From NCBI GenBank assembly GCA_903893815.1, contig CAITNS010000069.1, positions 1-56,358 of the forward strand: a stretch of DNA of 56,358 nucleotides. The letters are read 5' to 3'. The first letter of the stretch is position 1; each line of letters opens with the position of its first letter. Source of the stretch: an uncultured Bacteroidota bacterium. Its GTDB lineage: Bacteria; Bacteroidota; Bacteroidia; B-17B0; Aurantibacillaceae. Under the pieces are notes generated by a model that saw only the letters and a list, made by a program, of their open reading frames with translations, was not told where the DNA came from and ran no database searches. A program made the position numbers and the translations under genes. This document shows positions 12,337-51,432 of the stretch, piece after piece.

Positions 12337-12638
12337 GTGTTTTATAAAAAAAAGTACTTGTTTTGTTAATAAAATCGCACTTTGTTAATAAATATGCCCT
12401 GTATCTCTATTATAATGGGACTTTCGGCGACAGGAAATCTCTAAAATGTCAATTAATAACCCTTTTCAACCTTATATAAGTGTCATATACTATTAATAAA
12501 GACTTTCCTTATATATAGATGTATACATATATAAGGTATATAAAAAAATTACTCTTCAACTCCTCTCAGGGTGAACATATTTAATGACAGACTAAAACTA
12601 TCATACCCTACAGCCCAGTAATAACAGGCAAATACAGA
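12337..12638. other. AT-rich gap between fmt and the HU promoter
   Basis: No gene is seen. It contains a self-complementary CTTATATAAG at 12471-12480 and a perfect inverted repeat at 12507-12536 (CCTTATATAT, ten-base spacer, ATATATAAGG). A clear terminator for fmt is not apparent. Confidence 0.5.
12507..12536. repeat. Perfect 10-bp AT-rich inverted repeat
   Basis: CCTTATATAT and ATATATAAGG flank a ten-base spacer. It could be a weak transcription stop for fmt or a binding site; no T run follows. A related word occurs in the hairpin at 45594-45643. Confidence 0.5.
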
Positions 12639-49429: not shown

Positions 49430-49560
49430 GTTTGGATGAAGTACACAAGCTTTGCTTGATGCAAGGACTGAAAAACAAAAAAAGAACTCCTGAGTTTTCT
49501 TTTTCTTTCTCAAAATGACATAACAGGGACTCGCCGAAAGGCAATTCCGTTTGAGACACA

Positions 49561-49590
49561 AAGCTTCTCATGAAAATGAGAGGCTTTTTT
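49561..49590 (+). terminator. Hairpin terminator before the pseudouridine synthase gene
   Basis: AAGCTTCTCAT-GAAA-ATGAGAGGCTT followed by six T. It lies 21 bases before the ATG at 49611 and rules out a start further upstream at 49551. The 49430-49560 stretch before it shows no gene. Confidence 0.75.
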
Positions 49591-49610
49591 GTTTATATTT
49601 AGTTCCATTA

Positions 49611-50249
49611 ATGTTTAAACTCCAAATCATATACGAAGACGCTATTTTACTCGTTTGCAACAAGCCTGCTGGTTTGATGGTTGAACCTGATCGAAACAAT
49701 CACCCTAATTTATTGCAGCAAGTCAAAAATTATTTAAAAGAAAAAACGGGCGATAAAAATCCTTATGCGCAACACTTGCATCGTTTAGATAGGGTAACGA
49801 GTGGCATTGTTTTATTTTCCAAACAAAAAGAACATTTAAGAAATTTGAGCGAGCAATTTGCACAAAGACAAGTTTCAAAATATTATGTGGCGTTAACAGA
49901 GAAAGCACCTGAAAAAAAAGCAGGAATTTTAGAACATTGGCATCGCAAAGAAAAAAAGAAAGCAGTACTGGTGCTTGAAGGAACTGAGTTTGCTGAAAAA
50001 GCAAAATTAGAATATAATGTTCAACCACATGGAAATAATGTTTTGTGGAACATAAAATTGCATACAGGAAAATATCATCAAATAAGAGTGCAATTAGCTA
50101 GCATTGGCTGCCCTATATTGGGAGACGAACTTTACGGCTCAACAGAACCTTACCAAACAAATGCTATTGCTTTGCACGCCGCCAAATTAATTATTAAGCA
50201 TCCTTTAAGCGGAAAAAAAATGGTTTTTGATGCGACACTAAATTTCTAG
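49611..50249 (+). CDS. RluA-family pseudouridine synthase
   Basis: 212 residues from ATG 49611. It isomerises uridines in rRNA or tRNA to pseudouridine. The catalytic Asp60 lies in HRLDRVTSGIVL, preceded by VCNKPAGLMVEPD; the later LHTGKYHQIRVQLASIGCPILGD-type segment (residues about 145-165) is the second family block. It is short and lacks an S4 domain, like the single-domain RluA/TruC-type enzymes. Target site cannot be told from sequence. Confidence 0.93.
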   Translation: MFKLQIIYEDAILLVCNKPAGLMVEPDRNNHPNLLQQVKNYLKEKTGDKNPYAQHLHRLDRVTSGIVLFSKQKEHLRNLSEQFAQRQVSKYYVALTEKAPEKKAGILEHWHRKEKKKAVLVLEGTEFAEKAKLEYNVQPHGNNVLWNIKLHTGKYHQIRVQLASIGCPILGDELYGSTEPYQTNAIALHAAKLIIKHPLSGKKMVFDATLNF

Positions 50250-50252
50250 CTT

Positions 50253-50276
50253 GTGGCTTCGACTCCGCTCAGCCAC
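50253..50276 (+). repeat. Family D hairpin repeat (D1)
   Basis: GTGGCT / AGCCAC arms around the conserved 12-base loop TCGACTCCGCTC. It forms an inverted pair with D2, 44 bases away, between the pseudouridine synthase and GIY-YIG genes. Confidence 0.82.
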
Positions 50277-50320
50277 CATTAATAAACTTAACCTGACACT
50301 TAGTGGAGCCAAAGTTTACG

Positions 50321-50344
50321 GTAGTTGAGCGGAGCCGAAACTAC
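50321..50344 (-). repeat. Family D hairpin repeat, inverted (D2)
   Basis: GTAGTT / AACTAC arms around GAGCGGAGCCGA, the complement of the D1 loop with one change. The stem differs from D1 at two pairs, both compensated. Its last bases overlap the GIY-YIG stop codon. A 7-bp inverted repeat (TAAACTT / AAGTTTA) joins D1 and D2 into a larger palindrome. Confidence 0.82.
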
Positions 50345-50652
50345 ATTTTAACACAGTTACTAAAATGACTTTCATTTACGCATTCAGATAATTTATTTAA
50401 CTCTTCAGGCATTCCTCTCATTAAAGCTTCTTTCTTTTTTCTACACCAACCTTGTACTTGCTTCTCACGATAAAAAGCAAAATCAACTCTTTGAAACTCT
50501 TCATAATAAATCAATTTCACTGGTAATCTTTTTTTAGTATGATTTGCTCCTTCACCATTTTGATGCTGAGTTAATCTCAACTCTAAATTATTTGTACTTC
50601 CTACGTAATAAGTTCCATCATTACATTCCAATATATACATATATCCTTTCAT
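50341..50652 (-). CDS. GIY-YIG nuclease family protein
   Basis: 103 residues forming a single GIY-YIG domain, as in the YhbQ/UPF0213 type. MYILECNDGTYYVGSTN holds the Tyr-Ile-Leu / Tyr-Val-Gly version of the GIY-YIG strands; Arg26 in NNLELRLTQH and Glu63 in AFYREKQVQGW are the usual catalytic Arg and metal-binding Glu. Function is unproven; the fold cuts one DNA strand in homing nucleases and UvrC. The gene is bracketed by two inverted pairs of family D hairpins, and its stop overlaps D2. Confidence 0.9.
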   Translation of the reverse strand: MKGYMYILECNDGTYYVGSTNNLELRLTQHQNGEGANHTKKRLPVKLIYYEEFQRVDFAFYREKQVQGWCRKKKEALMRGMPEELNKLSECVNESHFSNCVKM

Positions 50653-50675
50653 TCAATTTTTTATTTGTAACGCTT

Positions 50676-50701
50676 GGTGACTTCGACTCCGCTCAGCCAC
50701 C
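50676..50701 (+). repeat. Family D hairpin repeat (D3)
   Basis: GGTGACT / AGCCACC arms (one A-C mismatch) around TCGACTCCGCTC, extended outward by GTAACG / CGTTAC. It lies 24 bases upstream of the GIY-YIG start, in plus orientation. Confidence 0.82.
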
Positions 50702-50778
50702 GTTACTTGGTAACACAATATTTATATAGGCAATGAACGGAGTTAAAGTGCTCCTCAATTAAATAAACCCTATGATAG

Positions 50779-51432
50779 TTAGATACAATCGAATGTTAGC
50801 TGAGCGGAGTCGAAGCTAATCTCCTTCAAAACCTGATACTTCCCCACTACTCCATTTTGTAATTTTCTTTCTAAAATAGTAACCTGATTACAGGTAAATT
50901 TTTCTTCGAAAGAATAGTTTTTTATCATCGAAAAACTCTTTTTAAAATGTGCGCGAGGCAGCGCCTTTCCAATAGTTAAATGCGGAACAAAGGAACGTAC
51001 TCGTAATCCTAACAAAACGTGTAATTCCTTATATAACTTAACAATTTGTTCGGAGTTTTCTAATTTAGCATATATCGTATTAGAAGAAGAACCATGTTCG
51101 AAATGGTCAAAACCACTTACATTGATTTGAAATGGATGATTATTAGAAAATAGTTGTTGTACAGCCTTAATAAAACGCTCATTAACTGGACGCATCGTGT
51201 GAAACGACATTAATGAAATGATTTCCGAAGAGTTTAAGTTATAATCGCTTAAACCAATCTCGCGGTGCAATTTATGTTTAAGTAATTTCACTTTGTTTTT
51301 AATCGCGTCGGGCGGCGAAATAATAAAGAAATACTGGTGTACTGTATCTAATACAGGACTTTCTTTTTTAGCTTCAGAAAACAAGGATAACTGAGCTTGT
51401 TGAGCAGTTGAGTTGTGATTTCTAGTATTCAT
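50779..51432 (-). CDS. 2H phosphoesterase (2'-5' RNA ligase-like) protein
   Basis: 217 residues. After a Gln/Ser-rich start, the YFFIISPP strand begins a LigT/2H-type fold. The second catalytic motif is intact (PHLTIGKA, His151-x-Thr153). The first reads SFHTMRP (His78-Thr79-Met80), so the Thr/Ser expected two residues after His is not in place. Members act on 2'-5' or cyclic phosphodiester bonds in RNA. The last 13 residues (ISFDSAQLTFDCI) are largely the family D repeat D4 read as protein, so the natural end has been replaced or extended. Confidence 0.82.
   Translation of the reverse strand: MNTRNHNSTAQQAQLSLFSEAKKESPVLDTVHQYFFIISPPDAIKNKVKLLKHKLHREIGLSDYNLNSSEIISLMSFHTMRPVNERFIKAVQQLFSNNHPFQINVSGFDHFEHGSSSNTIYAKLENSEQIVKLYKELHVLLGLRVRSFVPHLTIGKALPRAHFKKSFSMIKNYSFEEKFTCNQVTILERKLQNGVVGKYQVLKEISFDSAQLTFDCI
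50796..50819 (-). repeat. Family D hairpin repeat inside a coding sequence (D4)
   Basis: TTAGCT / AGCTAA arms around GAGCGGAGTCGA, the exact complement of the D1 and D3 loop. It lies within the last codons of the 2H phosphoesterase gene and pairs in inverted orientation with D3. Confidence 0.82.

Follow-up and report, generated by a model that had tools for sequence, protein, structure and literature searches.

The small GIY-YIG nuclease and the hairpin repeats analysed here are, in our reading, the two halves of one selfish, REPtron-like system; we put the probability of this at roughly 0.7. Recognition between the tail of the protein and the loop of the hairpin is strongly supported by sequence comparison. 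The finding is real and broader than an earlier sequence-only reading of this DNA had seen.

The window, i.e. the whole stretch of 56,358 nucleotides that was analysed, stems from the genome of an uncultured Bacteroidota bacterium. Within it, the four hairpins of 24-26 bp that the sequence-only reading had described around the GIY-YIG gene were all recovered in place (Table 1). The stems had been said to differ and yet to pair. This held for D1, D2 and D4, but the D3 stem GGTGACT/AGCCACC carries an A.C mismatch that had been overlooked. Read along the nuclease gene, the order is + - gene + -, with two hairpins per side. D1, D3 and D4 share the loop TCGACTCCGCTC, from which the D2 loop, TCGGCTCCGCTC, differs by one change. 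With up to two mismatches, five loop matches were found in the window (0.37 expected), a number that was reached in 0 of 100 shuffles. The fifth match lies at 12556 and has two mismatches; a window scan with at most one mismatch returned D1-D4 alone. The product of the nuclease gene matched PF01541 in a Pfam profile search (E 2.8e-18).

Table 1. Coordinates of the nuclease gene, the hairpins and the neighbouring genes in the window.
Feature	Position	Strand	Description
Hairpin D1	50253..50276	+	GTGGCT-TCGACTCCGCTC-AGCCAC; loop 50259-50270; C at +7 after the loop
Hairpin D2	50321..50344	-	GTAGTT-TCGGCTCCGCTC-AACTAC; overlaps the nuclease stop codon
Hairpin D3	50676..50701	+	GGTGACT-TCGACTCCGCTC-AGCCACC; single A.C stem mismatch
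Hairpin D4	50796..50819	-	TTAGCT-TCGACTCCGCTC-AGCTAA; within the 3' end of the LigT-like ORF
GIY-YIG nuclease	50341..50652	-	103 aa; subfamily 1; tail LSECVNESHFSN (CxN type); ORF and Pfam
Pseudouridine synthase-like neighbour	49551..50249	+	locus flank; named by eye from sequence
LigT / 2'-5' RNA ligase-like neighbour	50779..51432	-	named by eye; C-terminus partly D4-coded (FDSAQ)

The spacers 50277-50320 and 50702-50795 contain, by eye, decayed-looking hairpins (TTAGTGGAGCCAAAG and TGAACGGAGTTAAAG), as though left by earlier insertions. In genome G003, where the element is absent, the homologue of the LigT-like ORF has a different sequence at the place where D4 codes FDSAQ in the window (50779-50819). 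Repeat-coded FDSAQ-like tails also end several GIY-YIG relatives. As a tidy empty counterpart to the site of the window gene, G003 was considered and rejected; it has neither the pseudouridine synthase nor the nuclease there, so that no junction is visible.

The window protein is an Slx1-type GIY-YIG domain without extra domains. Residues Y16, G18, R26 and E63, which we take to be the catalytic residues of the GIY-YIG motif, are invariant in 28 hand-picked, aligned proteins with a CxN tail. An AlphaFold model (pLDDT 89) has a helix at positions 82-90 and a low-confidence end at 93-99. The nearest solved folds are UPF0213 proteins (PDB 1zg2 and 1ywl) and Slx1, and the profile match to 1zg2 (E 1.5e-19) ends at position 81. 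The protein thus shares a nuclease domain of ~80 residues with the non-eukaryotic GIY-YIG proteins of the UPF0213/Slx1 lineage; unlike in that lineage, a loop-associated tail lies past the end of the 1zg2 match. Slx1 is described, in the portions of the literature accessible to us, as a structure-specific nuclease, and a hairpin substrate fits this lineage. A match to TIGR01453 in NCBIfam was weak and below the cut-off.

The repeats are dispersed over the window's genome. Counting of the exact 12-base loop gave 43 copies, mostly intergenic (23 forward and 20 reverse; 0 for the reversed control). A wider form, TTCGRCTNCGCTCA, has 63 copies in this genome, one of the 43 among 60 genomes in which it occurs. 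A second GIY-YIG gene of the window's genome, on contig C47, is likewise flanked by repeat copies; six of the 63 copies are no more than 600 bp from one of the two genes. Among the copies that were read, 38 of 50 are located outside ORFs of at least 100 aa and 12 inside; for positions drawn at random in these loci, the share inside is 88%. Inverted pairs were observed in the window and, among others, in L091, L101, L105, L106, L109, L114 and L120; other copies are single. Stem pairing is beyond chance: redealing the 3' arms among the 50 copies destroyed it. Of the 50 copies, 41 have a Watson-Crick pair 3 (redealt: mean 15.8, maximum 26) and 48 a Watson-Crick pair 4 (redealt: mean 18.5, maximum 29). 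Pairing spans about 4-6 bp around an 11-12 base loop; counted outward from the 12-base loop, it is no better than in the shuffles by pair 7.

To compare genes of this kind, loci were collected with patterns of the window protein, one pattern coming from its tail, and the best 80 of 203 were used (L007-L086). Three loop types were distinguished: T1 (TCGRCTNCGCTC), T2 (TCGRCNNGCTC) and T3 (TCGRGNNCCTC). T2 and T3 were derived from loci without T1, and the loop types as well as the tail classes were defined after inspection of these 80 loci. Repeat density proved much higher beside GIY-YIG genes of this kind than farther away, an enrichment that the sequence-only reading had implied. T1 loops numbered 224 in 89 kb within about 600 bp of the 80 genes versus 52 in 324 kb farther off, and at the same loci the near and far counts were 63 versus 16 for T2 and 87 versus 12 for T3; in this density script L069 was labelled CxN because of a repeat-coded ECLN, its true tail being AYRD and its loops T3. 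Beside the 80 genes, pair 3 was Watson-Crick in 150 of 178 T1 hairpins (59.5 when redealt), 43 of 52 T2 hairpins (18.2) and 63 of 74 T3 hairpins (24.6). Named isolates among the T1 loci include Chryseobacterium taeanense, Flavobacterium humi, Aquimarina spongiae and a Cyclobacterium. L029, L037, L038, L044, L048, L056 and L077 belong to MAGs with a non-Bacteroidota label, for which misbinning is possible; T1 or T3 hairpins adjoin the gene in all of these loci but L029.

Tandem hairpin arrays with fixed spacing were seen just downstream of the GIY-YIG gene at L014:3314-3809 (69 bp) and L019:3335-3427 (20 bp). At L015:3001-4050, the GIY-YIG frame continues in frame into a frame that by eye is thiamine phosphate synthase-like, and in L067 and L085 it likewise continues into another protein-like frame.

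All classes share a very similar nuclease part; it is the C-terminal tail that varies, and with it the loop. This was quantified in 108 de-duplicated loci, including both genes of the window's genome, from which the duplicates L122, L124, L130 and L168 had been dropped. A CxN tail was combined with a T1 loop in 62 of 63 loci; in the sole exception, L029, the contig ends one base past the match, and there is no hairpin upstream either. AYRD tails were combined with T3 (20/20) and NYxQ tails with T2 (8/8). In total, the typed tails of the three hairpin-bearing classes match the loop in 90 of 91 loci. Eight loci with other tails had T2 (six), T1 (one, L022) or none (one, L060); the L022 tail does contain CxN, beyond the search span used. 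LSKK tails were found without any T1-T3 repeat within about 600 bp (9/9 loci). These loci (L004, L131, L138, L139, L141, L142, L144, L280 and L282) are perhaps settled relatives, or they may have an undetected repeat type.

When tails were read by eye in the loci of relatives, CxN went with T1 in 16/16 and AYRD with T3 in 6/6 loci, and LSKK/LSRSK tails were without repeats in 9/9; L122, L124 and L130 are the class-defining loci L007, L015 and L064, and without them the CxN-T1 and AYRD-T3 counts are 14 and 5. A second subfamily, with the core FVYILKC...TGVTN, repeats the CxN-T1 match (12/12). In subfamily 1 (83 rows with a typed loop), none of the core columns 1-78 tracks loop type at z>6; the columns that do so are 86 and 90-99. 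T1 proteins of this subfamily have N93 and C91 in 51/51 cases, and T3 proteins have R93 in 19/20 and D94 in 20/20.

Tail state was also mapped on a tree of the core. It needs 30 changes, and 30 label shuffles gave 29-35; CxN as a single clade was rejected (AU p 0.009). This tree comprises ~78 columns and is weakly resolved, and part of the tail scatter is poor resolution. Well-supported branches yielded two independent pairs for CxN/T1 and one for AYRD/T3, which agree and are too few to test. The tree set omits L051 (truncated), L123 (identical to the window gene), L132 (lacking its start; AYRD tail and T3 hairpins), L143 (incomplete and without a hairpin), L145 (T2 hairpins with an atypical tail), L146-L151 and L283-L297. 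The latter two groups are mostly remote or broken GIY-YIG genes; T3 is present in none of them, and T1 is found at just two, L284, whose tail is CxN, and the broken L290.

The window locus itself offers a comparison between relatives. In G019, pseudouridine synthase-like and LigT-like neighbours flank the same gene type and hairpins as in the window. In G011, a GIY-YIG gene also lies between these neighbours; over 240 bases, the DNA of its core is 84% identical, but its tail is AYRDL and the hairpins around it are T3. As judged from these alignments, tail and hairpins changed together at one locus. The earlier proposal that the nuclease recognises or spreads the hairpins finds comparative support in its first part from the tail-loop covariation; the spreading we infer.

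The conserved 3' foot of the hairpins follows the core subfamily and not the loop. Beside subfamily 1 genes, C at +7 was found in 97% of T1 (n = 197), 98% of T2 (n = 52) and 96% of T3 hairpins (n = 92). Beside subfamily 2, TGACA was exact in 31/40 hairpins, and T at +5 and A at +7 were present in 40/40. Both foot classes are dispersed in the window's genome (27 TGA type, 19 C+7 type and 4 other among the 50 copies read), in line with its one gene per subfamily. Tail going with loop and core going with foot suggests, by correlation, a two-part code. The foot also bears on the idea that the repeats act as RNA, in the form of terminator or mRNA-stability hairpins placed near the gene for expression reasons. 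Such a role would suit their position (38/50 copies outside ORFs of at least 100 aa versus 88% of random positions inside), but the consensus of the 3' flank, C at +7 or TGACA, has no T run, and an expression signal would not be expected to follow the protein tail in its type. We regard this explanation as next to negligible.

The GIY-YIG relatives found on plasmids and phages are all below 60% identity. On a plasmid of the isolate Sphingomonas parapaucimobilis (L301:1374-2662), five T1 hairpins, four of which have the foot TGAACG, lie near a GIY-YIG gene whose tail is not CxN. In the other four plasmid loci fetched (five of 35 records), no hairpin bracketing like that of L301 was found. On the evidence of this plasmid, the layout reaches Alphaproteobacteria; because L301 pairs T1 hairpins with a non-CxN tail, the tail code differs there and hence is not universal.

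Repeat numbers were compared in 60 genomes, the window's own and 59 relatives, using CxN and AYRD gene lists compiled by hand; G004 and G015, which have broken remnants, were counted as without gene, and matches under about 65 bits went mostly unread. The median of T1 was 26 in the 12 genomes with a CxN gene versus 2 in the other 48 (Mann-Whitney p 4e-4; ancestry ignored). That of T3 was 13.5 in the six genomes with an AYRD gene (one gene broken) versus 1 (p 9e-5; ancestry ignored). The crossed comparisons of gene and repeat showed no association (p 0.40 and 0.33). Repeat number is thus associated with the matching gene type alone, shared ancestry in these 60 genomes being ignored. Abundant repeats in genomes lacking the gene, which the sequence-only reading had named as evidence against its hypothesis, were seen in part: 11 of the 48 without a detected CxN gene hold at least 10 T1 copies. 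At least 10 T3 copies are present in 3 of 54 genomes without an AYRD gene. Ten of the 11 T1-rich, CxN-less genomes were searched for a cognate gene, and bracketing by a T1 pair was seen at 0 of 30 GIY-YIG loci fetched (of 42 matches listed); two of these 30 loci carry a single T1. G053 has 136 T1 copies and one GIY-YIG match, in a 347-aa frame which by its length we take to be UvrC-like; no small GIY-YIG gene was found in this genome. In G053, whose genome is 2.0 Mb, many T1 copies form regular - + pairs about 45 bp apart (even numbers of L190-L218, and L263-L265). Gene loss after spread, or some helper, would explain repeats in gene-less genomes.

Genes of the second subfamily allowed the boundaries of the unit to be placed. 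They were found at three sites, in the window's genome (G000; same site in G019 and G011), in G014 and in G005. Homology at these sites starts a few bases from TGTCACCCTGAGCGGAGTCGAAGGG and ends at CTTCGACTCCGCTCAGCCTGACA or its like, the right loop of the G005 unit having one change. Since homology ends at the hairpins, the shared unit consists of a single gene enclosed by two hairpins that face outward. The genes flanking the G000 site are 12 and 34 bases apart in G010 and G009, and G007 has one hairpin there. As a clean empty site, G010 and G009 were rejected, because about 70 bp of flank is missing along with the unit.

Comparison of G000 with G019, the relative closest to it (76% complete), likewise showed differences in single repeats: some are present in one of these close species and absent from the other. 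Seven sites with a copy in G000 only could be placed (16 sought, of 25), and 17 with a copy in G019 only (18 sought). At all seven placed G000-only sites the hairpin is absent in G019. Of the placed G019-only sites, 7/17 keep a diverged or retained copy in G000 (L191, L205, L223, L224, L229, L234 and L237); at the other 10 a recognisable copy is absent in G000, several having poorly aligned flanks. Most apparent empty sites have untidy edges. The tidiest junction, L094 versus L258, is a ~21-base difference beside TTTGTCA/TTTGACA; an exact target rule was rejected, as a single tidy junction is too few for a target-site claim. The G000-G019 differences may be gains or losses, which two genomes cannot separate. 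Together, the three sites with shared ends and the presence/absence differences give comparative support to a putative movement of the unit.

These observations also weigh on the possibility that the nuclease recognises the hairpins without spreading them. It would then be a domesticated, structure-specific enzyme trimming or resolving hairpins during replication, with flanking copies that control its expression or mark its target. The closest solved folds, UPF0213 and the structure-specific Slx1, agree with such a role, as do the hairpins directly up- and downstream of the gene and the persistence of repeats in genomes without a detected cognate gene. We consider it rather unlikely, since second-subfamily units with ends at hairpins occur at three genomic sites and some repeats differ in presence between close species; furthermore, tail-loop covariation and CxN tails without a single origin on the core tree are unlike a housekeeping role.

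To our knowledge, REP/RAYT is the sole similar system. The selfish system proposed here resembles REP/REPIN-RAYT in its short, dispersed, intergenic hairpins, often in inverted pairs and with variable paired stems, in a conserved one-sided foot, and in a small nuclease gene flanked by cognate copies, as far as the accessible accounts of REPs go. Thus the REPtron feature of a nuclease gene flanked by dispersed hairpin repeat copies is present, as are the inverted, intergenic pairs of REPINs. An HUH Y1 transposase gene beside the repeats is absent, the gene being a PF01541 member: the enzyme is GIY-YIG, whereas RAYT is HUH Y1. In further contrast to REPs, the loop is the most conserved part here and follows the protein tail, and the foot is not GTAG. 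A check for a tetranucleotide foot of the GTAG/CGTC type gave C at +7 or TGACA, or TGTC on the other reading. CGTC-tagged REPs are reported in Bacteroidetes among other phyla, with a TGTC tag in many copies, in the accessible part of that study (PMC3733652). The class 2 hairpins here similarly read TGTCA at the tag end, but the stems of CGTC-tagged REPs are 8-9 bp and their loops 4-5 bases, compared to 4-6 bp and 11-12 bases here (PMC3733652, same part). No link between GIY-YIG genes and repeats was seen in the accessible portions of a 2006 GIY-YIG survey (PMC1564403) and a 2025 REP survey (PMC12306157). A description of a GIY-YIG/hairpin pairing was not found in the accessible portions of the open-access literature, subscription papers and preprints being outside this scope.

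Matches to Y1 transposase (PF01797) were obtained in 41 of the 60 genomes, the window's own included, and many repeats lie without a GIY-YIG gene. Another enzyme, an HUH transposase or host factors, might accordingly move the hairpins, the GIY-YIG gene being cargo or a parasite that settled there. RAYT was rejected as the mover: T1-T3 hairpins number 0 in 34.7 kb around the best 12 RAYT-like loci among the PF01797 matches listed, and G019 (46 copies) and G016 (30 copies) bear repeats without a Y1 match. Moreover, cargo would need no loop-matched tail, as seen in 90/91 loci, which leaves this explanation decidedly unlikely. That the 12 RAYT-like loci inspected hold none of these hairpins also agrees with the sequence-only reading, which had set the GIY-YIG arrangement apart from RAYTs.

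Small GIY-YIG enzymes include homing endonucleases, in which a GIY-YIG nuclease is likewise tied to mobile DNA. Accordingly, the gene could encode a free-standing homing-type endonuclease with adjoining cut sites by chance, the repeats having spread by ordinary recombination. The weak, sub-cut-off match to TIGR01453 points in this direction. A check for a homing-type allele found the second-subfamily unit absent at the same place in G010 and G009. Homing endonucleases serve one allele, a single uninterrupted site, whereas matching sequence is present here on both sides of the gene and at dozens of other dispersed hairpin sites; an intron or intein around the gene was not noticed in a casual look. 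Intron-type homing was rejected, NCBIfam yielding a sub-threshold match alone. We judge the homing explanation highly improbable.

We therefore return to the GIY-YIG protein and its hairpins as one selfish system, the layout of which works like a REPtron although the enzyme is unrelated. Cutting, excision and spread are most likely its purpose. The enzyme would bind the hairpin as folded single-stranded DNA, e.g. on the lagging strand; the tail would contact the loop and the enzyme would nick at the foot. Host repair could then copy or join elsewhere the released pair of hairpins, alone or together with the gene they enclose. GIY-YIG enzymes are not known to attach covalently to DNA as HUH enzymes do, so that joining is expected to proceed differently than with RAYTs. 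We lean towards a new mobile hairpin system with a modular code, independent of HUH/RAYT and occurring in Bacteroidota and beyond, in which a GIY-YIG tail of ~15 residues may read the loop, the core may read the foot, and a tail swap may retarget the enzyme. The HUH enzyme that defines the only similar system is absent here, its place being taken by an unrelated enzyme that has a recognition pattern of its own.

Many of the Bacteroidota genomes searched contain small GIY-YIG genes and TTCGACTCCGCTCAG-like repeats; a link between the two would explain where the repeats come from and what the enzymes act on. Should the tail indeed read the loop, this would be a compact, natural and retargetable hairpin recognition by a nuclease, testable with short oligonucleotides. 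If true, a second, unrelated enzyme class would run a REP-like repeat population, which would bear on how repeats without RAYT arise.
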